Part shown: in pieces, positions 27,530 to 59,330 of the stretch
How positions within the stretch are numbered: the first letter of the stretch is position 1
How the letters are laid out: each line of letters starts with the position of its first letter
The notes under the pieces: generated by a model
What the model was told of the DNA's origin: nothing
The model's input: only the letters and a program-made list of their open reading frames with translations
Databases searched by the model: none
Translations under genes and position numbers: made by a program
NCBI GenBank assembly: GCA_038030265.1
Contig: CM075941.1
Location: forward strand, 930,001 to 994,000
Direction of reading: 5' to 3'
From: Corythucha ciliata
Lineage: Eukaryota > Arthropoda > Insecta > Hemiptera > Tingidae
DNA length: 64,000 nt

Positions 27530-27532
27530 CTA

Positions 27533-28330: not shown

Positions 28331-28474
28331 TTTATTCACGCAATTGATTGCTCTGTGATTGATTCCCTTGCAACGAAGTGTTACCAAATAATTTCTGTGA
28401 TAAATAAATATTTAATAAAATACACTTCCAACATAAGAATCCAATAAAAGTATACACTTGCGTTTAACAATAAC

Positions 28475-28903: not shown

Positions 28904-28910
28904 AACGACT

Positions 28911-29895: not shown

Positions 29896-30762
29896 CGATT
29901 TATTGAGTGTTTAAAAGCTGAATTTGAAATCAAAGTTTCGACACCTGATTGCTATCTCGGAATAGCCATCAAACGAAGTGATGACGGAAAAATCACTCTT
30001 GATCAAAAGGGCTACACAGAAAAATTGCTGGATAAGTTCGGTATGACCGACTGTAAACCTGTGAGGACACCAGCAGAAACAGGCGGGCAAACGGTTAAAA
30101 GAGAAGGAAAACCCTTAGACCGGACGACACCCTACCGAGAAGCTGTTGGCAGCCTCATTTTTCTCGTTTCTGGGACAAGACCCGACTTGGCTTATGCAAT
30201 GAGCACCGTAGCGCAAGACGTTGAGAACCCAACTGATATTTCTTGGGGGAAAGTAAAACGTATCTTCAGATATTTAAAAGGCACGTTGGACTTCTGTCTC
30301 ACATACGAACGTGGGAGGCCAAAACAGCTGATTGCGTACAGTGATGCTGACTACGCAGCTGACAAATCGAGAAGATCGCGCAGTGGCATGCTTTGCATAT
30401 ACGCCGGCTCATAACTGACATGGACTAGTCAAAAACAAAAGAGCATCTCAGTCTCAACGATGGAAGCTGAGTATATATCAGCTAGTGAAGCAGCCAAGCA
30501 AATCATTTGGTTATCACGTCTACTCAGGGAAATAACGACTGATATTCAATAGCCGCGCTTAAATGTGGACAATCTGAGTGCTGTTCGTTTAATCCAGAAT
30601 CCCGAGTTCCACTTTAAAAGCAAGCATATTGATGTGAGGTATCATTTTGTTCGAGAGAAAGTGGCTAATGGGGACTTCTTGGTGAATCTTGGTCAATCAA
30701 GTGGCAAACGCGACAACCCGTCAGCCACGTTACTCGAGCCTTTCAAATACATCAAATCATAA
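29896..30762 (+). pseudogene. Copia RT end and RNase H, stops inside
   Basis: It continues the RT with CYLGIAIKRSDDGKI and LLDKFGMTDCKPV, then RNase H with LIAYSDADYAADKSRRSRSG, MEAEYISASEAAKQIIWL and a third Asp in VDNLSAVRL. In-frame stops occur after CIYAGS (near 30412) and after TTDIQ (near 30550). The protein ends naturally with the basic tail HIDVRYHFVREKV..., close to the usual copia C-terminus. No 3' LTR follows; minus-strand gypsy sequence begins within about 20 bp. Confidence 0.9.
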
Positions 30763-30785
30763 TCAAACCCCGAAATGAAAAGAGC

Positions 30786-32390
30786 TCAGCGCTGGAGCCG
30801 ACCCGCAGCCATCTCTGGTACACCTTTATTTTCTCCGAAAAGAGCTAACAATGGTTTATGATCCGATAAAAGAGTGAATTTTCGACCGATCAAATATTGG
30901 TAAAAATGTTTAACACCCCAGTACAGAGCTAATGCTTCCTTGTGAATGACGGAATAGTTCCTTTCTGCTGCATTCATTACGCGAGACGCAAAACAAATAG
31001 GTCGATTTGATCCATCCTCCATTTCATGCAACAAAACCGCTCACTAATTCTGTTTTCGAAGCATCGCATATCAATTTCACTGGCTTTTTAGGATCAAAGT
31101 GAACCAAAACTTGATTGCTTAATACCTCCTCCTTTGCTTTTTGAAACGTCTGTTCACACTTGGCTGACCATTCGAACTTCACACCTTTTTGCAGAAGGCG
31201 ATAAAGTGGCTTTAAAATATCTGCCAAGTGCTTGATAAACCTTCCATAGAAATTAACGAAGCCTGTAAATGCCCTCACTTCACTTACATTTCTTGGTCTC
31301 GGCATTGACCGAACTGCCTCCGTCTTCTTATTGTCCTTCGAAATTCCCTCTTTAGTAATTTTGTGACCCAAGTATGTAATTTCATTTTGGAAAAGGCACA
31401 TTTTTTGAAATTCAAACGAAACCCAGCATCACTCAAACGCCGAAGAACCATACGCAAATTAGACAAATGCTCATCTATATTTCTCCCAGTAACTATAAGA
31501 TCATCAAGAAAATTTCTGACTCCCGGAATTCCTTGAATACATTTTTCAACAGCTCGCTGAAAAATCGCTACTGCCGGTTTCGTGCCAAACGGGAGACGGT
31601 TCACCTTGTAAACCCCTCGATGGGTCGACCAGGCCAAAAGCATTTTGCTATCCTCTTCGAGCTCCAAGTGATTATATGCTTGACATAAATCTAACTTGGT
31701 AAATTGTTGACCCCCTTGCAAATGACACCACAAGTCTTCCACGTGCGGTAATGGATGTTGCACATTATCGAGATATTTATTCACAGTCAATTTATAATTG
31801 GCACACAATCTGATCGATTTCCCGTCTGCCTTAAGAATGGGAACCAGTGGAGTACCCCAGGGACTGTAATCGACTTTTTCGATCATACCCTCTGATTCTA
31901 GACGATCAAGCTCTTTTTCCACCAGTTCCTTAAATGCGAAGGGAATTTGACGGGGCTTCAAAAATCTAGGCTTTGCTTCGTCGCTAATTTTTAAATGAAC
32001 TTTCTCCAACTTATACAAACCTACTCCTTCTTGAAACACCGAGGAAAAATCTTTTGACAGACTGTAAATCAACTGTTCATCTTCCCTTACGCCATTTCCT
32101 GACTCAGCCGCAGTTACGTCCAACACTTCATGACTAAACATTTTCAACCAGTCTCTACCAAGCAACAACTTGGAACTTTTTGAAACAACCTGCAATCGGC
32201 AACATCGAGTTTTACCTTTCCAATCAACCGAAACCGAAAGTTCACCGACCGGTTTGACAATTTCCCCCGAAAAGCTTCTCAATTAAACCGAAGAACGCAA
32301 CAAAGGGAGAAATGAAAGGTGTTCTTTGTAAACTTGCCGAGGCAAAATTGAAACTCCTGCTCCCGTGTCAATTTCCATGTCAAAAGGAAC
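30786..32390 (-). pseudogene. Gypsy pol: protease, RT, partial RNase H
   Basis: Read on the minus strand: an aspartic protease with MEIDTGAGVSIL (about 32360), a TAA replacing a codon between LRSSV and LRSFSGEIVKPVGEL (near 32283), then RT with TKLDLCQAYNHLEL, RLPFGTKPAVAIFQ and the catalytic box NFLDDLIVTG. A frameshift near 31395 separates NFKKCAF from QNEITYLGHKITKEGI. Another near 31030 precedes LLHEMEDGSNRPICFASR. RNase H retains Asp (CDASK), Glu (IHKEALALYWGV) and Asp (LLSDHKPL) but is cut at GRLQR, where a TGA replaces the usual Trp. No integrase remains. Confidence 0.9.
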
Positions 32391-32401
32391 GTCATTAATC
32401 A

Positions 32402-33376
32402 CTACCTGGCTCTTATAGGACTAACAAAATTCAGCCCTTCCATAGAACGCATATCAACGACAGCGACCTCATCTTCACCGATGTGACTTTCAGTCTCACT
32501 CACACAGCTCACGCTACTTTTTGACTTGCAAACAACTGCTAAGTGGCCAATTGTTTTACATTTTCTACATCGGTTTCGGTAAGACTTGAAACGACAATCG
32601 GTGAAACAATGATTACCTTTTCCACAGTGAATGCAATTTACGGCCCCTTTGCCACTTCTTTGGTCTGATTGTGAGCTTTCAATCGTCTTCGTGGCCTGGA
32701 CAATCTTCAAAACTTTAGTTTCTTTCACCAGACCGTTAGGCGAGCGTTTTCCGACTGACTCTTTCTTTACAGCCAAATCGTAAAATTCCATCAAATTCTT
32801 TTCCTTCGGGTCTTCTTCACACAGTCTATCTAAAATCGGTGACTGTATCATACCACAAACAAATTTGTCTTTTACCGCGAACTCCAATTGAGGACCAAAC
32901 TGGCACCCCGAGGCAATTTTTTTTACACGGGCGAACCACTGAGCTACGGATTCCCCAGACTCTTGCTTCATTTCATAAAATTGGATCCGGTTCCTGAAAA
33001 CAGAGACAGTTATGGAACATTGCCGTGACATAATCAAACATATTTCATCGAAAGGCTTTCGAGACGGAAGATCCGGATCACATAGATCTCGAAGGTACTC
33101 GTAAGCTTCGGCGCCCATCACCGTAACCAAAACCGACATCTTTCTTTCCTCTTCCACAGCATTTACTTTGAAAAACTCTCGTAGCCTCTCTTCATATATT
33201 GTCCAGTTATCGCGTCCGACGGAAAATTCAGGCAGAGCCCCTAGATTCAACGATCGGACTTCCGGCGATCGTTGAGCCACCGGAGAAGACGAAGAAAACC
33301 TGGAAAAACCAATACTGCGGTCCTCTTCGACCATTGGAATCCTCGTTTTCCTCTTTGGCTTCATCCTCGTCGTCAA
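32402..33376 (-). CDS. Gypsy gag-like protein with zinc knuckles
   Basis: An intact 324-codon frame with a retrotransposon gag core (FSVGRDNWTIYEERLREFF, SVAQWFARVKKIASGCQFG) and two zinc motifs near residues 246-285 (CIHCGKGNHCFTDC and CRKCKTIGHLAVVC). Pol continues in the -1 frame: gag ends SPIRAR, while the overlapping -1 frame reads SYKSQVVINDVPFDMEIDTGAG. This fits the programmed -1 gag-pol shift of many gypsy elements, though a simple mutation is possible. The start is the first ATG after an AT-rich leader. Upstream I see no LTR. Confidence 0.85.
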   Translation of the reverse strand: MTTRMKPKRKTRIPMVEEDRSIGFSRFSSSSPVAQRSPEVRSLNLGALPEFSVGRDNWTIYEERLREFFKVNAVEEERKMSVLVTVMGAEAYEYLRDLCDPDLPSRKPFDEICLIMSRQCSITVSVFRNRIQFYEMKQESGESVAQWFARVKKIASGCQFGPQLEFAVKDKFVCGMIQSPILDRLCEEDPKEKNLMEFYDLAVKKESVGKRSPNGLVKETKVLKIVQATKTIESSQSDQRSGKGAVNCIHCGKGNHCFTDCRFKSYRNRCRKCKTIGHLAVVCKSKSSVSCVSETESHIGEDEVAVVDMRSMEGLNFVSPIRAR

Positions 33377-37446: not shown

Positions 37447-38570
37447 TTACATAAAATTTATTATAAATGTATTTATACGACAAAGACCAACGTCGAAAAG
37501 CCAGAGCAGTTCATCCACCAAGGTAGGGGGGGGGGCGGTTTCATCATTGCACAAATCAATTTCTTTCTCCCTAAGTGATGTACCAACACTATTTCGAGCA
37601 AGATCGTTCTTGATGGCTCCCCACACCAACTCAATCGGATTTAAGTCGGGGTGATAAGGAGGGAGACGCAGAGGTATGTGACCAAAAGACCGGATCAAGT
37701 CATCTACCACCAGTTCGAGAAGTTCTGCTTTCGTTGATGTTTCGCAGAATTCGATGCCATGCTGGGAAAACTATTCGACAATAACGCGCTTAAGGCTGCC
37801 GGAATTCGGCTTTTTGTTTCTTTCGAGGCAATGATAACTCGCGTTGTTCATGACTATGGCACTGCCTGCCGGCACGTTGGGTAGGAAGCACGTACTGAGC
37901 CATTTCGAGAAATTCTCAGCATTCATGAACGTGTGATAGTCCCCTGAAGTACTTGAGGATTTGAAAATCAGGAGACCGTCTCTAACGAAGCCTTGCTCCC
38001 CACCTCCACGAACAACAATAAGTCGATTGCCCTTGCCTGAAATATAAAATCACGAGAAACTATTTTCATGCTAAAGAAATGAAGAATCATCAGCTCACCT
38101 ATTTTATGAGTAGCCCCCAATTCGTCCTCCGACTGCCAACAGGATGTAACGTTGTGGGCCTCTTGTACGTACGTTTTTTCCAGGAAGACAATATTCTTGT
38201 TGGCCTCTCGATGTTTTTTTATCTCCCTCAGGTAGGAGACCCTACGGGCTGCAATTTCTGGCCGCTCAATTAGAATTTTACGATTGGATTCACACTTCTT
38301 CCACTTAAACCCCAGGTGATGTAGGCGCTGCCGAATGTACTCCTTACCGCAGTCTACAACGCCTTGCTCTAGTAACTCCTTATGGAGAAGCCTAATTGAC
38401 GGGCACTGCCTTTTAACAGCATAAAACTGCGAACTTTCAAACGAATGGCACTGTCAGTAAAAGAATCGAACTCGACTCGCTTCTTATGTGGAATGTTCTT
38501 CCTCGTAGGTGTGGTGAAAAGTGACCGACTCATACTCGAGACCTCTGAGGTCGATCGTTCGGCTTCGGCA
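37447..38570 (-). pseudogene. Tc1/mariner-like (DDE_3) transposase, inactive
   Basis: Read on the minus strand: basic N-terminus (KKRVEFDSFTDSAIR), winged-helix region (LLEQGVVDCGKEYIRQRLHH, FKWKKCESNRKILIERPEI), then the DDE core. The first catalytic box reads NIVFLEKTYV where relatives have LDETW, so the Asp is Glu. The second reads IVMNNASYHC where relatives have LDNASYH, so the Asp is Asn. The third, PPYHPDLNPIELVWGAIK, is intact. A 62-nt GT..AG intron interrupts the frame at 38037-38098 between ATHKIG and KGNRLIVV. A frameshift near 38430 and a TAG after VIVE (near 37770) add to the decay. LINE C starts at its 5' edge. Confidence 0.85.
38037..38098 (-). other. 62-nt intron in DDE_3 transposase
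   Basis: Donor GTGAGCTG (38098 downward) and acceptor ATATTTCAG (to 38037) bracket an AT-rich stretch. Removing it joins SEDELGATHKI to GKGNRLIVVRGG, the expected order in this family. Confidence 0.7.
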
Positions 38571-38572
38571 AA

Positions 38573-39096
38573 TTGAAATTGTTGTTAAGTCAAGTGTTGA
38601 TAAAAATAGGAGAATTTCTGATTTAAATGAGCGGGTTGTTTACTTGGAACAACAGGCCCTTAAACTGAATGTAGAAGTCAAGGGAATTCCGGAAACGCAA
38701 AACGAAGATTGTCGGAGTATTGCGGGGGATATATTTAAAACTTTAAAGATTGATGTGGGAATCAATGATGCGTTCAGCGTGGGTGTCGCTGGTCGTGGTA
38801 ATGATTCGTCACGCCGGCCCATTATTAAAACTTGTTCTGAACAAGATAAAGTTGTAATAATTAAGGAAGCTAAAAAGATTAAACCAAAGGTGAATAATCT
38901 TTTTGCCAAGTGGCCGGACACCCCGATTTACGTTAACGAGCATTTGACATTTCACACGAAAGCACTGTTGTTCAAAGCTAAGCAATTTGCCCGTGAGCAT
39001 GGGTATGCTTTCGCTTGGTGTGCGAATGCTCGAGTCTATCTAAGAAAGACTCCGGATTCAAGAAGAAATAGTTCGCGGGGAGGAGGATATAAATAA
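38573..39096 (+). pseudogene. LINE C ORF1, coiled coil and FP-like domain
   Basis: It reads VVKSSVDKNRRISDLNERVV, LEQQALKLNVEVKGIPE, DIFKTLKIDVGINDAFSVG and ends near the basic tail RRNSSRGGGYK. A heptad-like coiled coil followed by a VEVKGIPE box is typical of ORF1 proteins of CR1/L2-type insect LINEs, which bind RNA as oligomers. The N-terminus is truncated: the frame runs upstream into transposase DNA, so no authentic start is present. Confidence 0.75.
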
Positions 39097-39275
39097 ATTG
39101 GAGTGATCTTCTGTTTTGCTTTTTGTGGTTGTTATCCAATTAGTTTTAATTTTAAATTTATCATTATGGAAGAACTATCAACTTTGCTTGATGAATCGGA
39201 GACGTTTGATACTTTTGTGTGTGACACTTTGCAAGAGTTCGAGCCTTTTTTTGTAGTAGTTTTAAAGGCCTTAAG

Positions 39276-40236
39276 TTGGTCTCTGTAAATATTCGTAGTG
39301 TTAAGAAGCATTTCGTTGATTTAGAAGCATTTTTGGCGTCTACTAATGTTGCTTTTGATATTATTGTATTGTCTGAGACTTGGAATTACGATCACTTGAG
39401 TTTTGAAAATGGCGGATATTCAAATTTATTTTCTAAAAAACAAATTAATAGAACGGAAGGGATTTCTATTTATGTTAAGGATAGCCTGTCAGTTATATCA
39501 GTGGACTACGATGTCATGGCTAATTGTAATGCAATTCTTTTAAATATAGTATATAAAGGGGTGAAATTTGTCATTACGGCCTTGTATAGGTCGCCTGAGC
39601 TACCTCGTTGTTGAGTTGTTAGATTTATGTTCAGCACATAAAGTTCTTATATTTATTGGAGATATCAATATTAATAAGTTGAATTTGACAAAGAACTCCA
39701 TGAGGTATTGTAATATAATGGCGATGTACGGGTTTCAAAGTGTCATAAATGGAATTACTAGAGAGTTAAATGGTTCTCATGCTCGTGTATTAATCACTTA
39801 TTCGTTAAAGGTTGTTTAGGTAGTAAGAGTTTTGGTGTAATTTATAAAGAATCAATTGCTGATCATTACACGTGTTTAGGAGGGTTGACCTTTGACTGCA
39901 AGTGGGAAAATAAGTTGTCTGGTAATGTAGCTGTTCAGGATAAAGTTTTTAGAGATAGAATACCTAACAAAATTGTAGTTGATTATGCTAAACTTGATGA
40001 AAGACTTAAGCTGGAAACCTGGGAATGCGTCTATGAGGCTACTTGCGACGTTGATAGATTGTTAGAGTTATTTTTAGATAAATTTCAGGAACATGTAGAC
40101 AAAAGTAGTTCAGTTGTTGTGCAAGAAAGCAGTAAATTTACAAAATTAACTAAATGGATAACTAAAGGGATAATAATATCGATAAGGAATAGGGATAGAC
40201 TTAATAAGAAGTTGTTGAAGGAACCCTACAATGTTC
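39276..40236 (+). pseudogene. LINE C ORF2, endonuclease segment, frameshifted
   Basis: SVNIRSVKKHFVDLEAFL and FDIIVLSETWN (catalytic Glu) open the endonuclease. After a frameshift near 39600 the second catalytic loop LIFIGDININKLNL follows. Another frameshift near 39800 leads to SIADHYTCL and the linker (TKWITKGIIISIRNRDRLNK). The segment ends at the 12-bp target duplication in KEPYNV. With the downstream part it is a complete but twice-frameshifted endonuclease. Confidence 0.85.
40225..40236. repeat. Target-site duplication, left copy (CCTACAATGTTC)
   Basis: The 12-bp CCTACAATGTTC occurs here and at 48924-48935, and in both places it encodes the same LINE C residues (PYNV). It brackets the tRNA foldback array. 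Confidence 0.9.
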
Positions 40237-40319
40237 ATTAGTAAATTAATTAAACTGATATTATCCGGACGACGATGGAAGGGCATAGCCCAACACGATT
40301 CGAGTTTCAAGAAAAAATG

Positions 40320-40392
40320 GCTCCCCGGCGGGATTTGAACTCGCAACCTCTGGATTACCAGTCCAGCACGCTGCCATTTGCGCCACGGAGAC
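40320..40392 (-). tRNA. tRNA-Thr(GGT)-like, unit 1
   Basis: The 73-nt cloverleaf common to all 16 units has: acceptor GTCTCCG/CGGGGAG (first pair G-G mismatched, remainder paired with one G-T), D stem GCGC/GCGT, anticodon arm CTGGA-CTGGTAA-TCCAG with anticodon GGT (Thr), five-nt variable loop, and T arm GCGGG-TTCAAAT-CCCGC. A box (TGGCGCAAATGG) and B box (GGTTCAAATCC) fit Pol III consensus. CA then T6 follow, so CCA may be read across the 3' end. This first copy alone has a T-stem mismatch (GCGAG). Confidence 0.55.
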
Positions 40393-40641
40393 GCCTATGG
40401 GAGTCGTACTCCGAGGGATAAGCTAAGCCGAACCCCACCTAGGTCCATTGTTTCTCGAAACTCTAGGCGCTTCTCCTGATCGGTAAACCACGCCGAATTT
40501 AATCTTATCTAGATGTTGTTAGATTGATATAATGAATAAATCTGTCGCCGGCATTTTAATTAGTAAATTAATTAAACTGATATTATCCGGACGACGATGG
40601 AAGGGCATAGCCCAACACGATTCGAGTTTCGAGAAAAAATG

Positions 40642-40714
40642 GCTCCCCGGCGGGATTTGAACCCGCAACCTCTGGATTACCAGTCCAGCACGCTGCCATT
40701 TGCGCCACGGAGAC
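40642..40714 (-). tRNA. tRNA-Thr(GGT)-like, unit 2
   Basis: Consensus copy with A and B boxes and the T6 terminator intact. LINE D begins 16 bp beyond its 5' side (at 40731), and this copy lies in the left half of the 98-bp duplication. Confidence 0.6.
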
Positions 40715-40730
40715 GCCTATGGGAGTCGTA

Positions 40731-41643
40731 CGCGCCTTCTTATATTCTACAACGACTAGGCATTATTCGGGGAGTTTGCCACGAACTCACCGAGGAAGAC
40801 ATAGTTACTGACGTACATTCACCGAATTATGGTCTCATAAAGGTAATTAGGGCTAAACGCTTCTCTCGTAAAATAATTGAAAATGGTCAAACTAAATTTG
40901 TTCCAACCCAGACAGTCTTGTTAACGTTTCGTGGGCAGGAACTGCCGGAATACATCATATTGCATTGCGTCAAATGCCCCATTGAACCATACACACCAAG
41001 GATTAACCAGTGCTTCAATTGTCTTAGATACGGCCATAAAAAGGATTTTTGTAGAAGCGACACAAGATGCAGCAAATGCGGAGAGCAACACCCAAGTAGT
41101 GAATGCCCCCCCGACAAGCCCCCTTACTGTGTGCATTGTAAAGGAGAGCACTCTGCTCTCTCTAAGAGTAAATGCCCGGAATTCAGTAAGCAAAGGTCCA
41201 TCAGAACGTTAATGACTGACGAAAATCTTTCTTTCACCGAGGCTAGGGACAAAATGAGCATAAAATCATTCAAATCAGTTCTAACTAATCAGCCTCCCAA
41301 AATAAATAACACAACAGTTTTCCCCTCATTACAGTCAACAAACCGAGTTCCTCCTAAACGAACCCGCCCGAACACCCCTCCTGACAAAACCTTCGAAGAA
41401 CATCGTCAAATTCTAGAGAATCACCGACATGATATGGACAAATGCACACCTATCTCTAAAAATCCGTACTCACCAGCCGCCGAAGAGGACCGGGTCTCCC
41501 GAAATTCCTCTTACAACACCGATATCCTTTGCGAAGCTCTATTTGAAGTTTTTAATAGTCTAAAAGAAACACCTCTAAAAGAAAAAAGTGACATCATAAA
41601 AGAAATCAAGTCTAGAATTTCACATTTCTCTCTATTAAAATGA
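40731..41643 (+). CDS. LINE D ORF1 (gag-like), 5' truncated
   Basis: The LINE-derived part reads LQRLGIIRGVCHELTEEDIV, then three CCHC knuckles: CFNCLRYGHKKDFC, CSKCGEQHPSSEC and CVHCKGEHSALSKSKC (about residues 135-195 of the open frame), typical of I-like ORF1 nucleic-acid chaperones. The frame is open to TGA at 41641-41643 without internal stops. Upstream it stays open through the antisense of the tRNA (MAPRRDLNPQPLDYQSS), giving a possible chimeric 348-residue product from 40597. The native N-terminus is missing. Confidence 0.85.
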
Positions 41644-44336
41644 GTAATAACTCTTTAAAATTTTTACAATGGAACGCAAGGTCCGCCGTAAGCAACAAAG
41701 GCAGTTTAGAAGCTTGTTTATCACAAAATAATATTAATATCGCAATTCTTTCAGAGACATGGTTTCGACCTAATCAAGCAGTAAATTCCAGTGGTTTCAA
41801 TGTCATTAGAAAAGATCGAGATGATGGCAAAGCTGGAGTAGCCATTCTCGTCAAAAACAATATACCGTATACTGAAATGCCACGTATAAATTTTGAAAAT
41901 ATTATGTCAGTAGCCATATCTATCCCTTTTGAAACAAAAACCATTTCAATTGTGTCTATCTACAATAATCCTAGAAATAACGTCTCGTCTAGAAGTTGGG
42001 AGCAATTTTTCAATACATTTAAAAAACCTTGTATTATAGCTGGTGACTTCAACTCCCATCATCGCACGTTCGGGTGTTCTTTATCAGACCATAAAGGATC
42101 AGCCCTCGTTGAGGCCGCTGATAACTGCAATTTAATTCTCTTAAATGACGGCTCCCCAACCATGTTAAAATCCTCTAGACAAACTAACGATTCGGCAATA
42201 GACTTAACTTTTGTATCACCGGAGCTCTCTCCGAAGTTTGAGTGGTGCATACTGGATGACCCCATGGGATCCAATCATTTGCCGATCATTTTCGGTACAA
42301 CGGTTCCTTATGATAATAGCGTTAACTTACGATCGAACAAAAAATGGAAACTGAACGAAGCTGATTGGGACAAATATTCACACCTTATGGAAAAGTTATC
42401 GGCAGAACAATTGCCTTCCTACAACAGTTCTTATGATTACAAAACTTTCATTGATAATATCAATAGAGCTAGCGATCAAGCAATCCCGAAGTATAAAGAA
42501 GTGAAGAACCTCAAATTTTGTAAAAAATGGTGGAATGAAGAATGTAAAATAGCTATAGATAAAAGGAAAACAGCATACCTTGAATATAAAAATTCCCCTA
42601 CCTACAATAATTACATATCTTACCAAAGAGCGGATGCTCAAGCAAAAAAAATAGTTCGGCAGAGCAAAAACAAATCGTGGCAAACGTATTGTGAAGGAAT
42701 TAATAGAAAAAATAGTATAAAGGATATGTGGAAGGCATTTAAGCACCTCAAAAACAACAACTCCCAAAATAACTCTCCCATAACAGCAGGCGAACGGACT
42801 AATGATTTTTTTAACAAAATGTGCCCTCCTTTCGTCCCCGAGGACAACTACTTCGACTTGAATACACACAATGACCATTTTATACTTAAGCCTTTCACAG
42901 AAAAAGAGTTTAATAATGCCGTAAAAGAAAAAAGAAATACCGCTCCCGGATTGGACCATATACACTACCCCATGATTTCACATCTTCCAACTATATCTAA
43001 ACGAATACTTTTACACATTTTCAATCAAGCATGGGAAACAGGTGAATTCCCTGAAGATTGGAAAAATCACGTGGTGATCCCTCTTCTAAAACCTAATAAA
43101 CCCGGAGGCGACTGTAATTCCTACAGACCCATCTCTCTAACATCGTGCGTAGTGAAAACATTGGAACGAATGATAAAATGTAGGCTGGAGTGGTACATCG
43201 AATCTCAAGAAATTTTACCCTCAAGTCAATACGGATGTCGAAAAGGAAAATCTATACATGACTGCCATTCGCTCCTACTCACAGACATAGATATGAGTTT
43301 AACTGAAGATAAAACATTGCTTGCGGCATTTCTCGATGTTTCCGGGGCCTACGACAACGTAAACATACAACTGTTAGGACAAAAATTGTTTAATATAGGT
43401 CTACCTTTAAAATTTATCAATAATATCTTCAAATTAATAGATGGTAGAAATATATTTCTTAGAATTAACAGCGAATACGTCGGTCCAAGAATCTGTAGAG
43501 TAGGCTTACCACAAGGGGGCATACTAAGCGTCCCGTTATATGCAATCTATGCAGCCGACTTAGTTAGACATTGTCCCCCAAATATAAATATTGTTCAATA
43601 CGCAGATGACGTATGTATATACACTGCACACAAAAACATAACTACATGCGTGAATGACCTAGATCACGCGATGCAGAATATTTTTACATGGACCCACAAG
43701 AATGGCATGACTATTGCAACAGACAAATCATCAGTTTGTCTTTTCACTAGAAGACGACGAAATCCCCTGGGCGACTCAATTATTTTAGGAGGGGCGGCCC
43801 TCCAGGTCAAAACAAATATCCGATTTTTAGGATTACAGATCAATAATAAATTAAAATGGAAACATCACATTCAAGATATAGTATGTAAAGCTGAAAAATA
43901 TATTAATGTATTAAAAATGATCTGTTACAACAAGTGGGGTACAGACCCATCAACTTGTCTTCTTTTCTATAGGTCAACAATTAGAACTTTAATTGACTTT
44001 GGAAGCCTTTTCTACAGCAGAGCTAATACTGCAACGATTCAATTACTCGATAAGGTGCAATACAAATGCATAAGGCTATGTATGGGGTACTTGAGCAGCA
44101 CGCCAATCAATGTCATGTTGTCCGAGGCACACGAGCCACCACTTGAACTACGACGTAAAATGCTCGCCGATAGATACGTGCTGAAAACTCTTTCTCACTC
44201 ATCTTCCGTGATAAAAAAGATATGCCACTTGTCCACCATAGTCCTAACCCATACCTACTGGAACAAAAAACCCACTCCTTTAATAGTAAATAGCTTTCTT
44301 GACTGCTCAAAATTTCAACCTATTATTTCTTGTACT
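40731..44336 (+). mobile_element. LINE D: I-like LINE nested in the tRNA array
   Basis: A 3606-bp insertion truncated at both ends. ORF1 lacks its N-terminus and ORF2 lacks the RNase H and 3' UTR expected for this group. The 3' junction falls at GAAAAAATGG, the A-run beside the tRNA. The 98 bp from that A-run through the tRNA to GGGAGTCGTA are present on both sides (40633-40730 and 44337-44434). This is either an unusually long target duplication or insertion with deletion within a repeat array. No poly(A) is added beyond the A6 belonging to the unit. Confidence 0.85.
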
Positions 44337-44447
44337 GAAAAAATGGCTCCCCGGCGGGATTTGAACCCGCAACCTCTGGATTACCAGTCCAGCACGCTGC
44401 CATTTGCGCCACGGAGACGCCTATGGGAGTCGTACTCCGAGGGATAA
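41640..44447 (+). CDS. LINE D ORF2: endonuclease and reverse transcriptase
   Basis: The ATG overlaps the ORF1 stop as ATGA, suggesting termination-reinitiation. Endonuclease: LSETWF (about residue 38), IIAGDFNSHH (about 136), SNHLPIIFG (about 212). RT: HVVIPLLKPNKPGGDCNSYR, AAFLDVSGAYDNV, RVGLPQGGILSVPL and VQYADDV (about 653) with all catalytic Asp residues. The frame of 935 codons has no stop, remarkable among the decayed elements here. Element sequence ends at 44336 and the last ~37 codons come from the tRNA unit antisense. RNase H, normal for I-like ORF2, is absent by 3' truncation. Confidence 0.9.
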   Translation: MSNNSLKFLQWNARSAVSNKGSLEACLSQNNINIAILSETWFRPNQAVNSSGFNVIRKDRDDGKAGVAILVKNNIPYTEMPRINFENIMSVAISIPFETKTISIVSIYNNPRNNVSSRSWEQFFNTFKKPCIIAGDFNSHHRTFGCSLSDHKGSALVEAADNCNLILLNDGSPTMLKSSRQTNDSAIDLTFVSPELSPKFEWCILDDPMGSNHLPIIFGTTVPYDNSVNLRSNKKWKLNEADWDKYSHLMEKLSAEQLPSYNSSYDYKTFIDNINRASDQAIPKYKEVKNLKFCKKWWNEECKIAIDKRKTAYLEYKNSPTYNNYISYQRADAQAKKIVRQSKNKSWQTYCEGINRKNSIKDMWKAFKHLKNNNSQNNSPITAGERTNDFFNKMCPPFVPEDNYFDLNTHNDHFILKPFTEKEFNNAVKEKRNTAPGLDHIHYPMISHLPTISKRILLHIFNQAWETGEFPEDWKNHVVIPLLKPNKPGGDCNSYRPISLTSCVVKTLERMIKCRLEWYIESQEILPSSQYGCRKGKSIHDCHSLLLTDIDMSLTEDKTLLAAFLDVSGAYDNVNIQLLGQKLFNIGLPLKFINNIFKLIDGRNIFLRINSEYVGPRICRVGLPQGGILSVPLYAIYAADLVRHCPPNINIVQYADDVCIYTAHKNITTCVNDLDHAMQNIFTWTHKNGMTIATDKSSVCLFTRRRRNPLGDSIILGGAALQVKTNIRFLGLQINNKLKWKHHIQDIVCKAEKYINVLKMICYNKWGTDPSTCLLFYRSTIRTLIDFGSLFYSRANTATIQLLDKVQYKCIRLCMGYLSSTPINVMLSEAHEPPLELRRKMLADRYVLKTLSHSSSVIKKICHLSTIVLTHTYWNKKPTPLIVNSFLDCSKFQPIISCTEKMAPRRDLNPQPLDYQSSTLPFAPRRRLWESYSEG
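44346..44418 (-). tRNA. tRNA-Thr(GGT)-like, unit 3
   Basis: Consensus copy immediately 3' of LINE D, in the right half of the 98-bp duplication. The LINE D ORF2 frame reads through it in antisense. Confidence 0.6.
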
Positions 44448-44667
44448 GCTAAGCCGAACCCCACCTAGGTCCATTGTTTCTCGAAACTCTAGGCGCTTCT
44501 CCTGATCGGTAAACCACGCCGAATTTAATCTTATCTAGATGTTGTTAGATTGATATAATGAATAAATCTGTCGCCGGCATTTTAATTAGTAAATTAATTA
44601 AACTGATATTATCCGGACGACGATGGAAGGGCATAGCCCAACACGATTCGAGTTTCGAGAAAAAATG

Positions 44668-44740
44668 GCTCCCCGGCGGGATTTGAACCCGCAACCTCTG
44701 GATTACCAGTCCAGCACGCTGCCATTTGCGCCACGGAGAC
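44668..44740 (-). tRNA. tRNA-Thr(GGT)-like, unit 4
   Basis: Consensus copy, 322 bp from the previous one, with A box, B box and T6 terminator intact. Confidence 0.6.
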
Positions 44741-44989
44741 GCCTATGGGAGTCGTACTCCGAGGGATAAGCTAAGCCGAACCCCACCTAGGTCCATTGTT
44801 TCTCGAAACTCTAGGCGCTTCTCCTGATCGGTAAACCACGCCGAATTTAATCTTATCTAGATGTTGTTAGATTGATATAATGAATAAATCTGTCGCCGGC
44901 ATTTTAATTAGTAAATTAATTAAACTGATATTATCCGGACGACGATGGAAGGGCATAGCCCAACACGATTCGAGTTTCGAGAAAAAATG

Positions 44990-45062
44990 GCTCCCCGGCG
45001 GGATTTGAACCCGCAACCTCTGGATTACCAGTCCAGCACGCTGCCATTTGCGCCACGGAGAC
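44990..45062 (-). tRNA. tRNA-Thr(GGT)-like, unit 5
   Basis: Consensus copy, same spacing and Pol III signals. Confidence 0.6.
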
Positions 45063-45311
45063 GCCTATGGGAGTCGTACTCCGAGGGATAAGCTAAGCCG
45101 AACCCCACCTAGGTCCATTGTTTCTCGAAACTCTAGGCGCTTCTCCTGATCGGTAAACCACGCCGAATTTAATCTTATCTAGATGTTGTTAGATTGATAT
45201 AATGAATAAATCTGTCGCCGGCATTTTAATTAGTAAATTAATTAAACTGATATTATCCGGACGACGATGGAAGGGCGTAGCCCAACACGATTCGAGTTTC
45301 GAGAAAAAATG

Positions 45312-45384
45312 GCTCCCCGGCGGGATTTGAACCCGCAACCTCTGGATTACCAGTCCAGCACGCTGCCATTTGCGCCACGGGGAC
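45312..45384 (-). tRNA. tRNA-Thr(GGT)-like, unit 6 (acceptor variant)
   Basis: Differs from the consensus by T to C at acceptor position 4 (GTCCCCG), which replaces a T-G with a C-G pair and improves the stem. The neighbouring unit sequence also has a private change (GGGCGTAGCCC near 45280). Confidence 0.6.
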
Positions 45385-45633
45385 GCCTATGGGAGTCGTA
45401 CTCCGAGGGATAAGCTAAGCCGAACCCCACCTAGGTCCATTGTTTCTCGAAACTCTAGGCGCTTCTCCTGATCGGTAAACCACGCCGAATTTAATCTTAT
45501 CTAGATGTTGTTAGATTGATATAATGAATAAATCTGTCGCCGGCATTTTAATTAGTAAATTAATTAAACTGATATTATCCGGACGACGATGGAAGGGCAT
45601 AGCCCAACACGATTCGAGTTTCGAGAAAAAATG

Positions 45634-45706
45634 GCTCCCCGGCGGGATTTGAACCCGCAACCTCTGGATTACCAGTCCAGCACGCTGCCATTTGCGCCAC
45701 GGAGAC
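45634..45706 (-). tRNA. tRNA-Thr(GGT)-like, unit 7
   Basis: Consensus copy with intact Pol III signals. Confidence 0.6.
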
Positions 45707-45955
45707 GCCTATGGGAGTCGTACTCCGAGGGATAAGCTAAGCCGAACCCCACCTAGGTCCATTGTTTCTCGAAACTCTAGGCGCTTCTCCTGATCGGTAA
45801 ACCACGCCGAATTTAATCTTATCTAGATGTTGTTAGATTGATATAATGAATAAATCTGTCGCCGGCATTTTAATTAGTAAATTAATTAAACTGATATTAT
45901 CCGGACGACGATGGAAGGGCATAGCCCAACACGATTCGAGTTTCGAGAAAAAATG

Positions 45956-46028
45956 GCTCCCCGGCGGGATTTGAACCCGCAACCTCTGGATTACCAGTCC
46001 AGCACGCTGCCATTTGCGCCACGGAGAC
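45956..46028 (-). tRNA. tRNA-Thr(GGT)-like, unit 8
   Basis: Consensus copy with intact Pol III signals. Confidence 0.6.
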
Positions 46029-46277
46029 GCCTATGGGAGTCGTACTCCGAGGGATAAGCTAAGCCGAACCCCACCTAGGTCCATTGTTTCTCGAAACTCT
46101 AGGCGCTTCTCCTGATCGGTAAACCACGCCGAATTTAATCTTATCTAGATGTTGTTAGATTGATATAATGAATAAATCTGTCGCCGGCATTTTAATTAGT
46201 AAATTAATTAAACTGATATTATCCGGACGACGATGGAAGGGCATAGCCCAACACGATTCGAGTTTCGAGAAAAAATG

Positions 46278-46350
46278 GCTCCCCGGCGGGATTTGAACCC
46301 GCAACCTCTGGATTACCAGTCCAGCACGCTGCCATTTGCGCCACGGAGAC
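46278..46350 (-). tRNA. tRNA-Thr(GGT)-like, unit 9
   Basis: Consensus copy with intact Pol III signals. Confidence 0.6.
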
Positions 46351-46599
46351 GCCTATGGGAGTCGTACTCCGAGGGATAAGCTAAGCCGAACCCCACCTAG
46401 GTCCATTGTTTCTCGAAACTCTAGGCGCTTCTCCTGATCGGTAAACCACGCCGAATTTAATCTTATCTAGATGTTGTTAGATTGATATAATGAATAAATC
46501 TGTCGCCGGCATTTTAATTAGTAAATTAATTAAACTGATATTATCCGGACGACGATGGAAGGGCATAGCCCAACACGATTCGAGTTTCGAGAAAAAATG

Positions 46600-46672
46600 G
46601 CTCCCCGGCGGGATTTGAACCCGCAACCTCTGGATTACCAGTCCAGCACGCTGCCATTTGCGCCACGGGGAC
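46600..46672 (-). tRNA. tRNA-Thr(GGT)-like, unit 10 (acceptor variant)
   Basis: Carries the same GTCCCCG acceptor variant as unit 6, exactly four units (1288 bp) away, which hints at a block duplication within the array. Confidence 0.6.
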
Positions 46673-46921
46673 GCCTATGGGAGTCGTACTCCGAGGGATA
46701 AGCTAAGCCGAACCCCACCTAGGTCCATTGTTTCTCGAAACTCTAGGCGCTTCTCCTGATCGGTAAACCACGCCGAATTTAATCTTATCTAGATGTTGTT
46801 AGATTGATATAATGAATAAATCTGTCGCCGGCATTTTAATTAGTAAATTAATTAAACTGATATTATCCGGACGACGATGGAAGGGCATAGCCCAACACGA
46901 TTCGAGTTTCGAGAAAAAATG

Positions 46922-46994
46922 GCTCCCCGGCGGGATTTGAACCCGCAACCTCTGGATTACCAGTCCAGCACGCTGCCATTTGCGCCACGGAGAC
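46922..46994 (-). tRNA. tRNA-Thr(GGT)-like, unit 11
   Basis: Consensus copy with intact Pol III signals. Confidence 0.6.
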
Positions 46995-47243
46995 GCCTAT
47001 GGGAGTCGTACTCCGAGGGATAAGCTAAGCCGAACCCCACCTAGGTCCATTGTTTCTCGAAACTCTAGGCGCTTCTCCTGATCGGTAAACCACGCCGAAT
47101 TTAATCTTATCTAGATGTTGTTAGATTGATATAATGAATAAATCTGTCGCCGGCATTTTAATTAGTAAATTAATTAAACTGATATTATCCGGACGACGAT
47201 GGAAGGGCATAGCCCAACACGATTCGAGTTTCGAGAAAAAATG

Positions 47244-47316
47244 GCTCCCCGGCGGGATTTGAACCCGCAACCTCTGGATTACCAGTCCAGCACGCTGCCA
47301 TTTGCGCCACGGAGAC
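47244..47316 (-). tRNA. tRNA-Thr(GGT)-like, unit 12
   Basis: Consensus copy with intact Pol III signals. Confidence 0.6.
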
Positions 47317-47565
47317 GCCTATGGGAGTCGTACTCCGAGGGATAAGCTAAGCCGAACCCCACCTAGGTCCATTGTTTCTCGAAACTCTAGGCGCTTCTCC
47401 TGATCGGTAAACCACGCCGAATTTAATCTTATCTAGATGTTGTTAGATTGATATAATGAATAAATCTGTCGCCGGCATTTTAATTAGTAAATTAATTAAA
47501 CTGATATTATCCGGACGACGATGGAAGGGCATAGCCCAACACGATTCGAGTTTCGAGAAAAAATG

Positions 47566-47638
47566 GCTCCCCGGCGGGATTTGAACCCGCAACCTCTGGA
47601 TTACCAGTCCAGCACGCTGCCATTTGCGCCACGGAGAC
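47566..47638 (-). tRNA. tRNA-Thr(GGT)-like, unit 13
   Basis: Consensus copy with intact Pol III signals. Confidence 0.6.
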
Positions 47639-47887
47639 GCCTATGGGAGTCGTACTCCGAGGGATAAGCTAAGCCGAACCCCACCTAGGTCCATTGTTTC
47701 TCGAAACTCTAGGCGCTTCTCCTGATCGGTAAACCACGCCGAATTTAATCTTATCTAGATGTTGTTAGATTGATATAATGAATAAATCTGTCGCCGGCAT
47801 TTTAATTAGTAAATTAATTAAACTGATATTATCCGGACGACGATGGAAGGGCATAGCCCAACACGATTCGAGTTTCGAGAAAAAATG

Positions 47888-47960
47888 GCTCCCCGGCGGG
47901 ATTTGAACCCGCAACCTCTGGATTACCAGTCCAGCACGCTGCCATTTGCGCCACGGAGAC
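47888..47960 (-). tRNA. tRNA-Thr(GGT)-like, unit 14 (last minus copy)
   Basis: The last minus-strand copy before the array turns. About 200 bp further on the orientation flips; the first plus-strand unit keeps only the final bases of its tRNA (GGAGCCA then T6, near 48157). Confidence 0.6.
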
Positions 47961-48410
47961 GCCTATGGGAGTCGTACTCCGAGGGATAAGCTAAGCCGAA
48001 CCCCACCTAGGTCCATTGTTTCTCGAAACTCTAGGCGCTTCTCCTGATCGGTAAACCACGCCGAATTTAATCTTATCTAGATGTTGTTAGATTGATATAA
48101 TGAATAAATCTGTCGCCGGCATTTTAATTAGTAAATTAATTAAACTGATATTATCCGGAGCCATTTTTTCTCGAAACTCGAATCGTGTTGGGCTATGCCC
48201 TTCCATCGTCGTCCGGATAATATCAGTTTAATTAATTTACTAATTAAAATGCCGGCGACAGATTTATTCATTATATCAATCTAACAACATCTAGATAAGA
48301 TTAAATTCGGCGTGGTTTACCGATCAGGAGAAGCGCCTAGAGTTTCGAGAAACAATGGACCTAGGTGGGGTTCGGCTTAGCTTATCCCTCGGAGTACGAC
48401 TCCCATAGGC

Positions 48411-48483
48411 GTCTCCGTGGCGCAAATGGCAGCGTGCTGGACTGGTAATCCAGAGGTTGCGGGTTCAAATCCCGCCGGGGAGC
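48411..48483 (+). tRNA. tRNA-Thr(GGT)-like, unit 15 (plus arm)
   Basis: First complete copy in the inverted right arm, identical to the consensus and followed directly by CA and T6. Confidence 0.6.
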
Positions 48484-48732
48484 CATTTTTTCTCGAAACT
48501 CGAATCGTGTTGGGCTATGCCCTTCCATCGTCGTCCGGATAATATCAGTTTAATTAATTTACTAATTAAAATGCCGGCGACAGATTTATTCATTATATCA
48601 ATCTAACAACATCTAGATAAGATTAAATTCGGCGTGGTTTACCGATCAGGAGAAGCGCCTAGAGTTTCGAGAAACAATGGACCTAGGTGGGGTTCGGCTT
48701 AGCTTATCCCTCGGAGTACGACTCCCATAGGC

Positions 48733-48805
48733 GTCTCCGTGGCGCAAATGGCAGCGTGCTGGACTGGTAATCCAGAGGTTGCGGGTTCAAATCCCGCCGG
48801 GGAGC
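48733..48805 (+). tRNA. tRNA-Thr(GGT)-like, unit 16 (plus arm)
   Basis: Second complete plus-strand copy, 322 bp after the first. The array ends 118 bp downstream at the right target duplication. Confidence 0.6.
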
Positions 48806-48923
48806 CATTTTTTCTCGAAACTCGAATCGTGTTGGGCTATGCCCTTCCATCGTCGTCCGGATAATATCAGTTTAATTAATTTACTAATTAAAATGCCGGC
48901 GACAGATTTATTCATTATATCAA

Positions 48924-48935
48924 CCTACAATGTTC
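48924..48935. repeat. Target-site duplication, right copy
   Basis: CCTACAATGTTC, identical to 40225-40236. LINE C coding resumes here in frame as PYNVRLREKLHNYKK. Confidence 0.9.
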
Positions 48936-50130
48936 GTTTAAGAGAAAAATTGCATAATTATAAAAAGGTGCTCAAAGTATTAGTTAATAATGCTAAGAAG
49001 TCGTATTACAGTAATCTCGTTGTAAATTCAAAAGATGATCCAAAGAAAATGTGGCGATCAATAAATGAAATTATACTGAATAAACCAAATATAGTTAAAG
49101 AAGTAGATTGGTAGGTAGGTAGAAATTTTATTGTGCAGGTATTGTTGACAGATGAAATACATCAGAATACACAGAAACATTCAGTATTAACTATATAGCC
49201 CGCCGGAACATAGCCGCAATTTACTTAAAGCCATATTGAGACCCAAGTTTGTACCCAGTTCTGTATTTCTGTGGCCTGTGGAAGAAAGGGAAATTAGTAA
49301 CTTTATTGTAAAAATGAAGGATTCATCCAGCGTCAAAATTAATAATATCTCTAATTTGGTGTTAAAAAAAATGTCCACTTATATTAGTTCTCCGCTAGCT
49401 TTTATATTAAATCGGGTTTTTCAAGATGGTGTTTTTCCCCGTAAACTGAAGGAAACTTTTATCTTACCTCTGCATAAAGGAGGGGATGGAACGCAAGTCA
49501 ATAATTACAGACCGATTGCCTTGACCTATTCCTTGGCCAAATTTCTTGAAAAGTGCATTAAGGTCAGACTGATGAAGTTCCTTAATGATAATAATATTTT
49601 GTCGAAAAATCAGTATGGTTTTCGTCAGGGACTTAGTTCTGAGCAAGCCCTATATGGTATGCACAATGAAATTTTTGATGGCCTGGATGAAGGCTCCTGT
49701 GTTTTGGGCATTTTTCTTGATATTCAGAAGGCCTTCGATGTTGTGGACCATGACCTGCTAATATCGAAGCTAAACGCTTATGGGATCAGAGGTTGTGTCT
49801 GTGATTTGTTGGCTTCGTTCTTATGAAATCGTCCGTGTGTCACTAAAATGGGCTGTGTGGAGAGTGAGGTGGAATACTTCAGTTGTGGGGTGCCACAGGG
49901 TACTGTCTTGGGACCTGTTTTGTTCATATTATTTATTAATGATCTTTTAGATTTGGATTTAAATGGTAAAATTTATGGCTTCGCGGATGACACTTTATTA
50001 ATTTTCAGAGGTGATAATTTTGATGGTTTAGTTGAGTCTTGCACCCAATCCCTAGGCATTGTTAAAACATGGTTTGACAGAAATTTAATGTCCTTAAACA
50101 TACAAAAAACGGCAGTAATTAGATTATCCC
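48936..50130 (+). pseudogene. LINE C ORF2, linker and reverse transcriptase
   Basis: The linker continues (AKKSYYSNLVVNSKDDPKKM, WRSINEIILNKPN), is broken by a scrap at about 49113-49190, then resumes with RT: ETFILPLHKGGDGTQVNNYR, NQYGFRQGLSSEQAL, LGIFLDIQKAFDVVDH, FSCGVPQGTVLGPVLF and GFADDTLLIF, with all three catalytic Asp residues retained. A TGA after LLASFL (49824-49826) is in frame with NRPCVTK, where relatives have Ser, so it is a point nonsense change. The frame is lost near 50130 at the next insertion. Confidence 0.9.
49113..49190 (-). mobile_element. Scrap of a LINE 3' tail with (ACCT)n end
   Basis: On the minus strand it ends ACAATAAAATTTCTACCTACC, an AATAAA followed by a short ACCT-type microsatellite, the tail style of CR1-like insect LINEs. 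About 78 bp, opposite to LINE C, interrupting its linker after IVKEVDW. It looks like an extremely 5'-truncated insertion. Confidence 0.5.
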
Positions 50131-50610: not shown

Positions 50611-51621
50611 TTACAGTTGACCAGTAAAATAATAAATTTCCCTAAAATGCTTCGGGCAGGATTTGAAAAAGCATCTTCCCAGAACATGCCGAGGTTGTCG
50701 GCATTTGCTGTTTTTTCTGTCCGCCATTACCTGGTCGTGGGGAGTAATATTACTTAGGAATCCACTCTCCAACAATATATTGTTGTCGGATATCCTTCCA
50801 CCGAAACCCAAGGATATAAAATTGATAAATCCATTAGGTGTACACGAAATAAGATATTTGAAGGTGTTGCACCCGTAATATTCGGACCATGTCAGAGACT
50901 GTTTATAGGCATCGCTTGGTTTTTCTATTTGTACCTCAAAACAATCAATCATTGAGACCACTTTAAAGAATTGTTTCCTAAATGGGATCGGCAATCTGAG
51001 GAAAATTTTATCTTTTGCAGGCCAAAAAATTAATTTTTGAAGTTCTGCTGCTATTGGAGGTAACGAGTTAAGAAAGATTCTAGAAATACTAGCCTCTGAT
51101 AATCCGAAATCATGACCAAGTGTGACGAATTGATCATTGGTCTTAAGTTTTTTTAGAGCAATCATAATATTCCTGTCTAAAATGTCAGTGGCCTCCGTTA
51201 AAAGTTTGATAATAAAAAAACAATGTCTCGGAAGTCCTAGATACAGTTTTGGGTGGAGCTCGATGAGAGCTCTGGTCACTGCGCAGCACCTTCCCTTAAA
51301 AATTCGGACTGCTTCTTCTTTCTCAGCAGTCGAATATGAATACGAGGACGTGGACGCAGATGACACCACAAATGATGAAGATGAGGTCGAGATGAGTGAG
51401 GTATCTTCTCTTATAGACAGCCGTTTGGGATCTTGTTCCTCGCTGCTATCATCACGCGACAAACGTCGTTTTGGCATTAGAGCAAACTCTGAGTGGCTCT
51501 CAATTTCAGTCGTGCTCCTCGGTCGTGTGGAAAAATAAAGAGGCGGTAAAATCGTTTGGCTCTGCTTGCTGCGAAAGTAGGGTCGTACTTGTACCGCTCT
51601 GTGAAAAATATCTGGCTTCAC
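50611..51621 (-). pseudogene. DDE_4-type transposase, main exon, truncated
   Basis: Serine-rich linker (STSSSSFVVSSASTSSYS), helix-turn-helix region (LGHDFGLSEASISRIFLNSL) and catalytic core: VVSMIDCFEVQIEKP (first Asp), SLGFGGRISDNNILLESGFL (second Asp) and VMADR (third). After MADR relatives continue GF... into a C-terminal helix with the last acidic residue. Here the frame changes to unrelated sequence and stops, so the C-terminus is lost. The 5' limit is an acceptor TCCCTCAG near 51635. Confidence 0.8.
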
Positions 51622-58000: not shown

Positions 58001-58500
58001 NNNNNNNNNNNNNNNNNNNNNNNNNNNNNNNNNNNNNNNNNNNNNNNNNNNNNNNNNNNNNNNNNNNNNNNNNNNNNNNNNNNNNNNNNNNNNNNNNNNN
58101 NNNNNNNNNNNNNNNNNNNNNNNNNNNNNNNNNNNNNNNNNNNNNNNNNNNNNNNNNNNNNNNNNNNNNNNNNNNNNNNNNNNNNNNNNNNNNNNNNNNN
58201 NNNNNNNNNNNNNNNNNNNNNNNNNNNNNNNNNNNNNNNNNNNNNNNNNNNNNNNNNNNNNNNNNNNNNNNNNNNNNNNNNNNNNNNNNNNNNNNNNNNN
58301 NNNNNNNNNNNNNNNNNNNNNNNNNNNNNNNNNNNNNNNNNNNNNNNNNNNNNNNNNNNNNNNNNNNNNNNNNNNNNNNNNNNNNNNNNNNNNNNNNNNN
58401 NNNNNNNNNNNNNNNNNNNNNNNNNNNNNNNNNNNNNNNNNNNNNNNNNNNNNNNNNNNNNNNNNNNNNNNNNNNNNNNNNNNNNNNNNNNNNNNNNNNN
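58001..58500. other. 500-N scaffold gap
   Basis: Exactly 500 N, a conventional gap placeholder, so true distance and content are unknown. Open frames reported across it are artefacts. Confidence 1.
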
Positions 58501-58569: not shown

Positions 58570-59330
58570 CGTATAGGAGGAAATTGACAGTTTCCACTTT
58601 CGAGTAAAAGTACTCATTTGAAACGATACCTATTCGATACCGAGTATTTACTTGTTTGAATCAATACCCATTCGATACCGAGTAAAAGTACTCGAATGGG
58701 TATTGATTCAAGCGAGTAAATACTCGGTATCGAATGGGTATTGATTCGGTATCGTTTCAAATGAGTACTTTTACTCGGTATCGAATGGGTATTGATTCAA
58801 ACAAGTAATTACTCGGTATTGAATGGATATTGATTCAAATGAGTACTTTTACTCGGTATCGAATGGGTATTGATTCGGTATCGTTTCAAATGAGTACTTT
58901 TACTCGGTATCGAATGGGTATTGATCAAACAAGTAAATACTCGGTATCGAATGGGTATTGATTCAAGCGAGTAAATACTCGGTATCGAATGGGTATTGAT
59001 TCAGTATCGTACTAGTTTTAATCAATACCCATTCGATACCAATTAAAGTACTCATTTTAAACGGTACGTTTCCGATGCCGGGAGTTCACGTGTTTAAATT
59101 AATTTAAAAAATTTAAAATTAAAAAATACTCGGTATTGATTAAAAAGTATCGAATCGTACTCAGTATCGAATAAAAAGTATCGATTCCTGAAGTACTCAT
59201 TTTCCTGTATCGAATCAAAGTATCGAAATAGTACTTGGTATCGAAAAAAGTATCGATACCAAAACTACTGGGTATCGATTGAAAAGTATCGATACTTTAC
59301 TCTAATTACTGGTATCGATTCAACACTACT
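58570..59330. repeat. Palindromic GGTATCGAATGGGTATTGATTC array
   Basis: Units around GGTATCGAATGGGTATTGAT and GAGTAAATACTCG repeat at roughly 30-45 bp. To the left of about 58690 they run in the opposite orientation (ATCAATACCCATTCGATACC), making a hairpin around AGTAAAAGTACT. Spacing is irregular. The array abuts LINE E and removes the 3' two thirds of its RT. Confidence 0.8.

Follow-up and report, generated by a model that had tools for sequence, protein, structure and literature searches.

Introduction

Tandem repeats can occur as dispersed short satellite arrays, such as 1.688 of Drosophila, and foldback elements, such as FB of Drosophila and TU of sea urchin, consist of inverted ends built of subrepeats with a variable middle. 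Circular DNA, carriage by transposons, and retrotransposition are all possible routes by which satellite monomers arrive at new sites in chromosomes, and the question is still open. The present analysis concerns an 8687-bp block in a stretch of 64,000 nucleotides from Corythucha ciliata (Hemiptera, Tingidae; assembly GCA_038030265.1, contig CM075941.1, positions 930,001 to 994,000), which is referred to as the window and in which all positions are counted. This block (40237-48923) is composed of a tandem array of 322-bp units, each with a transfer RNA (tRNA)-like gene, and of a fragment of a long interspersed nuclear element (LINE), here named LINE B. It interrupts a second, decayed LINE, here named LINE C, and may have been captured there as DNA.

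The closest described systems share single traits with this locus. In bivalves, satellites occur as short tandem arrays that adjoin transposable elements or are broken up by them (PMC5139131), and the array in the window resembles these dispersed satellites in being short and associated with transposable elements. In contrast to the bivalve and 1.688 arrays, it has a monomer that includes a tRNA-like gene (box A, box B, T run), and it is bounded by a clean 12-bp duplication. Like the macro-dyad arrays of Tribolium, in which two subarrays predominate, it reverses its orientation within one array; however, the Tribolium arrays measure kilobases to tens of kilobases, are likely (peri)centromeric, tend to symmetry, and have conserved inversion sites (PMC13081366), whereas the insert in the window has about 13.4 units against 2.4 and lies inside a LINE. 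Inverted ends built of subrepeats and a variable middle are shared with foldback elements such as Tetris, which, unlike the insert, has defined terminal inverted repeats (TIRs) as ends and duplications of 8-10 bp (PMC4079207), while the insert has no common terminus and a duplication of 12 bp. Twin-primed LINE insertions are similar in that duplications bound two inverted fragments (PMC2837659) with both 3' sides facing outward, but the inserted sequence here is non-LINE, has no poly(A), and has a very long inverted part. Helenus is likewise a mobile unit with a tRNA-like sequence, which is located there in a long terminal repeat (LTR); it differs in having two LTRs, a primer site, a polypurine tract, and, in animals, 4-bp duplications (PMC10886601), as opposed to head-to-tail units and 12 bp. 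Clusters of tRNA genes with head-to-head pairs exist in some eukaryotes (PMC2888827). An insertion of a tRNA-repeat array with a target duplication was not found in the titles and abstracts of the literature searched, which mostly excludes subscription papers, and the combination of a multi-unit tRNA-like array, one inversion, and a clean 12-bp duplication was not seen there either.

Insertion into a decayed LINE

The block 40237-48923 lies inserted in LINE C, an old and broken element, and is flanked by an exact 12-bp duplication (Table 1). The duplicated sequence, CCTACAATGTTC, has only two exact matches in the window, both of which directly border the insert. Five more matches are found if one or two mismatches are allowed, and the total of seven is near shuffle level (shuffle mean 5.09). 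The chance that two boundaries set independently by the array would show such a 12-base identity is about 6e-8. The 12-bp target duplication that had been reported in the preliminary description was therefore confirmed.

When the two flanks were joined in a script, the reading frame of LINE C stayed open through the junction and reads ...RDRLNKKLLKEPYNVRLREKLHNYKK... A protein search with this joined frame collected 1056 relatives, of which the best 120 were examined. All 120 span the junction by at least 15 residues on each side, 75 of them with a gap-free junction stretch and the other 45 with at least one gap there; as the relatives were collected with the joined-flank query, this set is not blind, while the junction alignment itself is unforced. 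At the site where the joined frame has LKEPYNVRLREKLHNYK, the relative P0193 has KKEPYNVRLRARYTNYR. With the occupied left flank as query, 95 of the 120 match, but only 2 continue 15 residues beyond the junction. The two named relatives among the best 120 of 1056 are lepidopteran, with 30 and 31% identity. The empty-site structure of the LINE C frame, which had been read earlier from the letters alone, is hence borne out by these relatives. The Pfam family PF25298 matches the left part of LINE C at 38521-39096, and PF00078 matches the right part at 49236-49826. A second break was observed in the right flank at 49108-49235, where the frame reads GGTAGGTAGGTAG and is then not continued until the frame of the reverse transcriptase (RT) resumes; this is perhaps another small insertion.

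Table 1. Features of the insert and of the interrupted LINE C, with positions in the window (ORF, open reading frame; TRF, Tandem Repeats Finder)
Feature	Position	Strand	Basis
Host LINE C, left part: Baculo_FP-type ORF1 and decayed endonuclease/linker of ORF2	38521..40236	+	Pfam, frame and joined-flank translation
Target site duplication, left copy, 12 bp, CCTACAATGTTC	40225..40236	.	sequence, exact match search
Left array piece, 1.5 units, 2 tRNA-like genes, starts at unit phase 247	40237..40731	-	unit comparison
LINE B fragment of 3605 bp with the end of ORF1 and with ORF2 (endonuclease and RT), without C-terminal part and 3' end	40732..44336	+	Pfam, alignments of relatives
Main array of 11.9 tandem 322-bp units, 12 tRNA-like genes	44337..48159	-	TRF, ARAGORN, unit comparison
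Head-to-head orientation switch from unit phase 280 into the reverse complement at phase 13, with GGA as 3-bp overlap	48157..48159	.	unit comparison
Inverted array piece, 2.4 units, 2 tRNA-like genes, ends at unit phase 212	48157..48923	+	TRF, ARAGORN, unit comparison
Example tRNA-like gene, ARAGORN Thr GGT, box A-like TGGCGCAAATGGC, box B GGTTCAAATCC	48411..48483	+	ARAGORN, Rfam, sequence
Target site duplication, right copy, 12 bp, CCTACAATGTTC	48924..48935	.	sequence, exact match search
Host LINE C, right part: linker then RT, with stops and frame changes	48936..49826	+	Pfam, translations

The array, its ends, and its turning point

Tandem Repeats Finder (TRF) detected a period of 322 bp over 44337-48159 with 11.9 copies and 99% matches as well as an inverted 322-bp array over 48157-48927 with 2.4 copies. 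The array consists of homogeneous head-to-tail repeats of one monomer and is in this respect satellite-like. ARAGORN identified 16 tRNA genes in the block, 14 of which are on the minus and 2 on the plus strand, and called all of them Thr GGT; the tRNA model RF00005 of Rfam matches all 16 with 53.1-60.8 bits. This is in full agreement with the 14 minus-strand and 2 plus-strand units, arranged head to head, of the preliminary description, in which the entire block was regarded as built of such units; this holds for the array parts but not for the stretch occupied by LINE B, which had gone unreported.

Differences between the units were counted against one reference unit and amount to 2 in 495 bp in the left piece, 3 in 3823 bp in the main array, and 0 in 767 bp in the inverted arm, which makes 5 differences in about 5.08 kb for the whole array. 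Amplification or homogenisation looks recent because the units are almost identical; the copy number is that of the assembly at a single locus. The most diverged part is the left edge piece, which is cut off from the remaining array by LINE B. The variant A77G is common to the units at 45304 and 46592, which are four units apart, whereas A295G is present in the unit preceding 45304 and absent from the one preceding 46592. A blastn search revealed no further unit elsewhere in the window. Two unit patterns in viral_contigs and one in genome_contigs had 0 matches, which is uninformative for an animal repeat, as neither is a collection of animal genomes, and a search with a 48-residue frame derived from the unit yielded no candidate.

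The unit phase was counted from AAAAAATGGCTCC. Read inward, the insert starts at phase 247 on the left and at phase 212 on the right, so that its two ends differ by 35 bp in register and have no terminus in common. The earlier statement that the termini are out of phase is upheld by this, with the offset corrected from 33 to 35 bp. The orientation switches only once, from the minus-strand array to the plus-strand array, with GGA common to both. In the sense of the tRNA, both outer ends are formed by the region 3' of the tRNA-like gene, which faces outward. Both ends are located in a spacer with 74% AT, a level that is reached by 9.6% of phases, and neither has a poly(A) or other evident tail upon inspection of the sequence. 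When the host bases beside the insert were compared with the native continuation of the unit, 4 of 6 matched on the left (3.4% of phases are as good) and 3 of 6 on the right (14.9%). Together, 7 of 12 bases match, as in 1.1% of phase pairs, although this test is post hoc, the right end taken by itself is not striking, and at both ends the base directly adjoining the insert is mismatched. As both the AT-content test and the end-homology test were chosen after the sequence had been seen, their results are to be taken as hints.

Each unit also contains an inverted repeat around the tRNA-like part, GAGTTTCGAGAAA[A/C]AATGG, with 18 of 19 bases matching. This structure resembles a small TIR element, but no target duplication around it was seen by eye. 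Neither outer end of the insert reaches this inverted repeat. The right junction of LINE B (phase 321), however, falls within one of its arms, and the turn at phase 13 is located 4 bases beyond the inner edge of that same arm; the position of these break points at or near the arm may be due to chance.

The tRNA-like gene

In each unit, a T6 run begins 3 bases past the tRNA-like gene (at 48486 in the example of Table 1). A promoter and a terminator for RNA polymerase III (Pol III) are plausible because a box A-like motif, a box B, and this T6 run are present. In contrast, it is doubtful that a working tRNA is formed, because the acceptor stem begins with a G-G mismatch (by eye), because GGT is an unusual Thr anticodon in eukaryotes, and because the free fold is weak. 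The RNA fold has a z value of -1.63 against shuffles, 14 of 200 shuffles were equally good, and the minimum-energy fold shows no clean cloverleaf. The Rfam scores are good despite this doubt about function. In the two units with A77G, the acceptor T-G wobble is changed into C-G (by eye), and the score is 60.8 instead of 58.7 bits, while the left-edge unit with a change in the T-stem has 53.1 bits.

The LINE B fragment inside the array

LINE B makes up about 41% of the block. It has the Pfam domains PF00078, PF14529, and PF03372 (endonuclease and reverse transcriptase), and its ORF1 end contains zinc-knuckle-like motifs (by eye) but no Pfam domain. The two LINE B frames that were scanned are devoid of a transposase domain, and one of them had endonuclease and RT only. 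ORF2 continues without a stop into the repeat unit. Among the best 120 of 732 relatives, with identities of up to 43% and including a Callosobruchus protein at 42%, the sequence extends by a median of 333 residues past this break, and by 150 residues or more in 111 of the 120. A 16-row alignment likewise comprises 112-336 further residues in 15 relatives. As the relatives run on well past the break, both the C-terminal part of ORF2 and the 3' end are missing from LINE B. The fragment is probably also cut at the 5' end, as it starts in mid-ORF1 in a comparison by eye with the LINE at 60996-62033. Both frames are nevertheless open, and complete relatives of LINE B may be active in this genome.

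On the left of LINE B the array halts at unit phase 98, and on the right it restarts at phase 321. These junctions correspond either to a duplication of 99 bp of the unit or to a loss of 223 bp, which look alike in a tandem array. GAAAAA, which matches the T6 run, was considered as a possible native continuation of LINE B and was compared with the residues that follow the break in those 36 of the 120 relatives that align near the end. The residue directly after the break is D, E, K, or N in 17 of 36 (background 26%), but the second is K or N in only 7 of 36 (background 17%). The near-identical units and the open frames of LINE B indicate recent events, in contrast to LINE C with its many stops and frame changes.

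Origin of the insert

The reading favoured here, with a probability of roughly 0.47, is that part of a tRNA-derived satellite array, in folded-back form, was taken up as DNA at a staggered break and so entered the old LINE C in one event. A linear or circular array molecule would first fold back, with a 3' end in GGA snapping onto TCC of its own strand, and copying from this end would generate the head-to-head turn. The molecule would then be joined into a break with 12-nt overhangs, the fill-in of which would lead to the 12-bp duplication. LINE B would be a separate arrival, which came about either through retrotransposition with internal priming of its RNA at the T6 run of a unit, with the 99-bp duplication, or through end joining that removed 223 bp. 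Capture is supported by the 12-bp duplication, the closed host frame, the 3-bp overlap at the fold-back junction, and the near identity of the units. The out-of-register ends without a common terminus are expected for DNA that was broken and not cut out. Also counted in favour of capture were the LINE fragment within the array and the known occurrence of inverted subarrays in the satellite arrays of Tribolium (PMC13081366). Three points weigh against capture. In human templated insertions, a duplication is found in the LINE-mediated class 1 but is absent from class 2, which is ascribed to break repair (PMC5110952); the end homology fits priming better than plain capture; and no donor array or extrachromosomal molecule was seen in the assembly of this one locus.

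The main rival, which is ranked next after DNA capture but is itself rather unlikely, is a twin-primed or dual-primed retrotransposition of array RNA, which the preliminary description did not include among its interpretations despite the same geometry. A LINE enzyme would cut the host twice, 12 bases apart, which is within the usual range of LINE target duplications. One cut end would prime on a tRNA-sense transcript of the array, giving the right arm, and the other would prime inside the same or another such transcript, giving the inverted left part; the array might have been short at first and have grown later in place. Twin-primed insertions have the same architecture (PMC2837659). The outward position of the tRNA 3' flanks is required of priming points, although any single inversion would show it with even chance, and the AT-rich spacer and the end homology at both ends point in the same direction within the limits given above for these tests. 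On the other hand, the missing poly(A) and the mismatched bases next to the insert speak against priming, although an element-specific tail of unfamiliar sequence may be present. Pol III is expected to terminate at the T6 run behind each tRNA-like part, so that a multi-unit RNA would need Pol II, and the inverted part would have to be a 7.9-kb complementary DNA with an antisense LINE B unless array growth and LINE B came later. An extension of this idea, according to which a tRNA-like Pol III satellite spreads as multi-unit blocks that are target-primed at both cut ends, with inserts born head to head, tRNA 3' flanks outward, and a LINE-type duplication, is quite unlikely. The insert could also have entered LINE C as one or two units in inverted order, after which the minus-strand side would have grown to about 13 units by unequal exchange, followed by LINE B. 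Such a course is unlikely. It agrees with the near-identical units, with A77G, which block duplication could have placed in two units, and with the higher divergence of the left edge piece beyond LINE B. However, an array grown before insertion would give the same pattern, the distribution of A295G requires a later change if a block was duplicated, and the numbers are small.

A foldback-type DNA transposon with long inverted ends of tRNA-bearing subrepeats, moved by a transposase encoded elsewhere, is improbable. Inverted ends built of the same 322-bp units (40237-40731 minus and 48157-48923 plus), a target duplication, and unrelated DNA in the middle in the form of LINE B would fit, and the layout is comparable to that of Tetris from Drosophila virilis with its internal repeats of about 220 bp in the TIRs (PMC4079207). 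The termini are unmatched, however, the duplication exceeds that of Tetris, the scanned LINE B frames contain no transposase domain, and only this one copy was seen in the window. The proposal of a foldback-type mobile element, one of two offered in the preliminary description, is therefore not supported, while its preference for capture at a staggered break agrees with the out-of-register ends and the 12-bp duplication; the rolling-circle or extrachromosomal source that it named for the captured DNA is putative. Highly improbable is an orientation switch or copy number made by the assembler: identical tandem units are hard to assemble, and 500 N at 58001-58500 indicate that the window is probably scaffolded, but the array has opposite orientations at the two host junctions, the 12-bp duplication is shared, and the host frame closes, so that an inversion is required whatever the assembly did inside, unless the two sides are different loci. 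Two further candidates were rejected. A multimer of short interspersed nuclear elements (SINEs), or a SINE with a tRNA head, is not compatible with the T6 run behind each tRNA-like part, as a Pol III transcript that terminates there would hold little beyond this part. A Helenus-type LTR element does not match the 12-bp duplication and the head-to-tail units; a primer site and a polypurine tract were not searched for. Helitrons are not known to insert with such a duplication.

Implications and surroundings of the insert

The insert suggests that satellite-like repeat blocks can move around the genome, a putative behaviour deduced from one insertion. It is unusually legible, as this one locus reveals the empty site, the 12-bp duplication, both ends, and the inversion point with single-base precision. 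Should sister inserts be present in the genome, their ends and orientations would separate DNA capture, retrotransposition, and transposon activity. With a tRNA-like monomer, a Pol III promoter could be brought to the new site by each move, and interference of tRNA genes with replication forks has been reported (PMC2888827). If priming at both ends were true, tandem repeats and not only single transcripts would be spread by retrotransposition.

The window is rich in retrotransposon pieces. Those at 25782-33376 and 59265-62033 include two RVT_1 frames, a Copia-type RVT_2 frame, and a LINE with PRE_C2HC and endonuclease domains. A fragment of a DDE_Tnp_4 transposase is located on the minus strand at 50611-51621. 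Two other tandem arrays were found, one at 3071-3662 with 3.6 copies of 159 bp and inner 21-bp repeats, and one at 58692-59010 with periods of 129/38 bp near the 500-N run.

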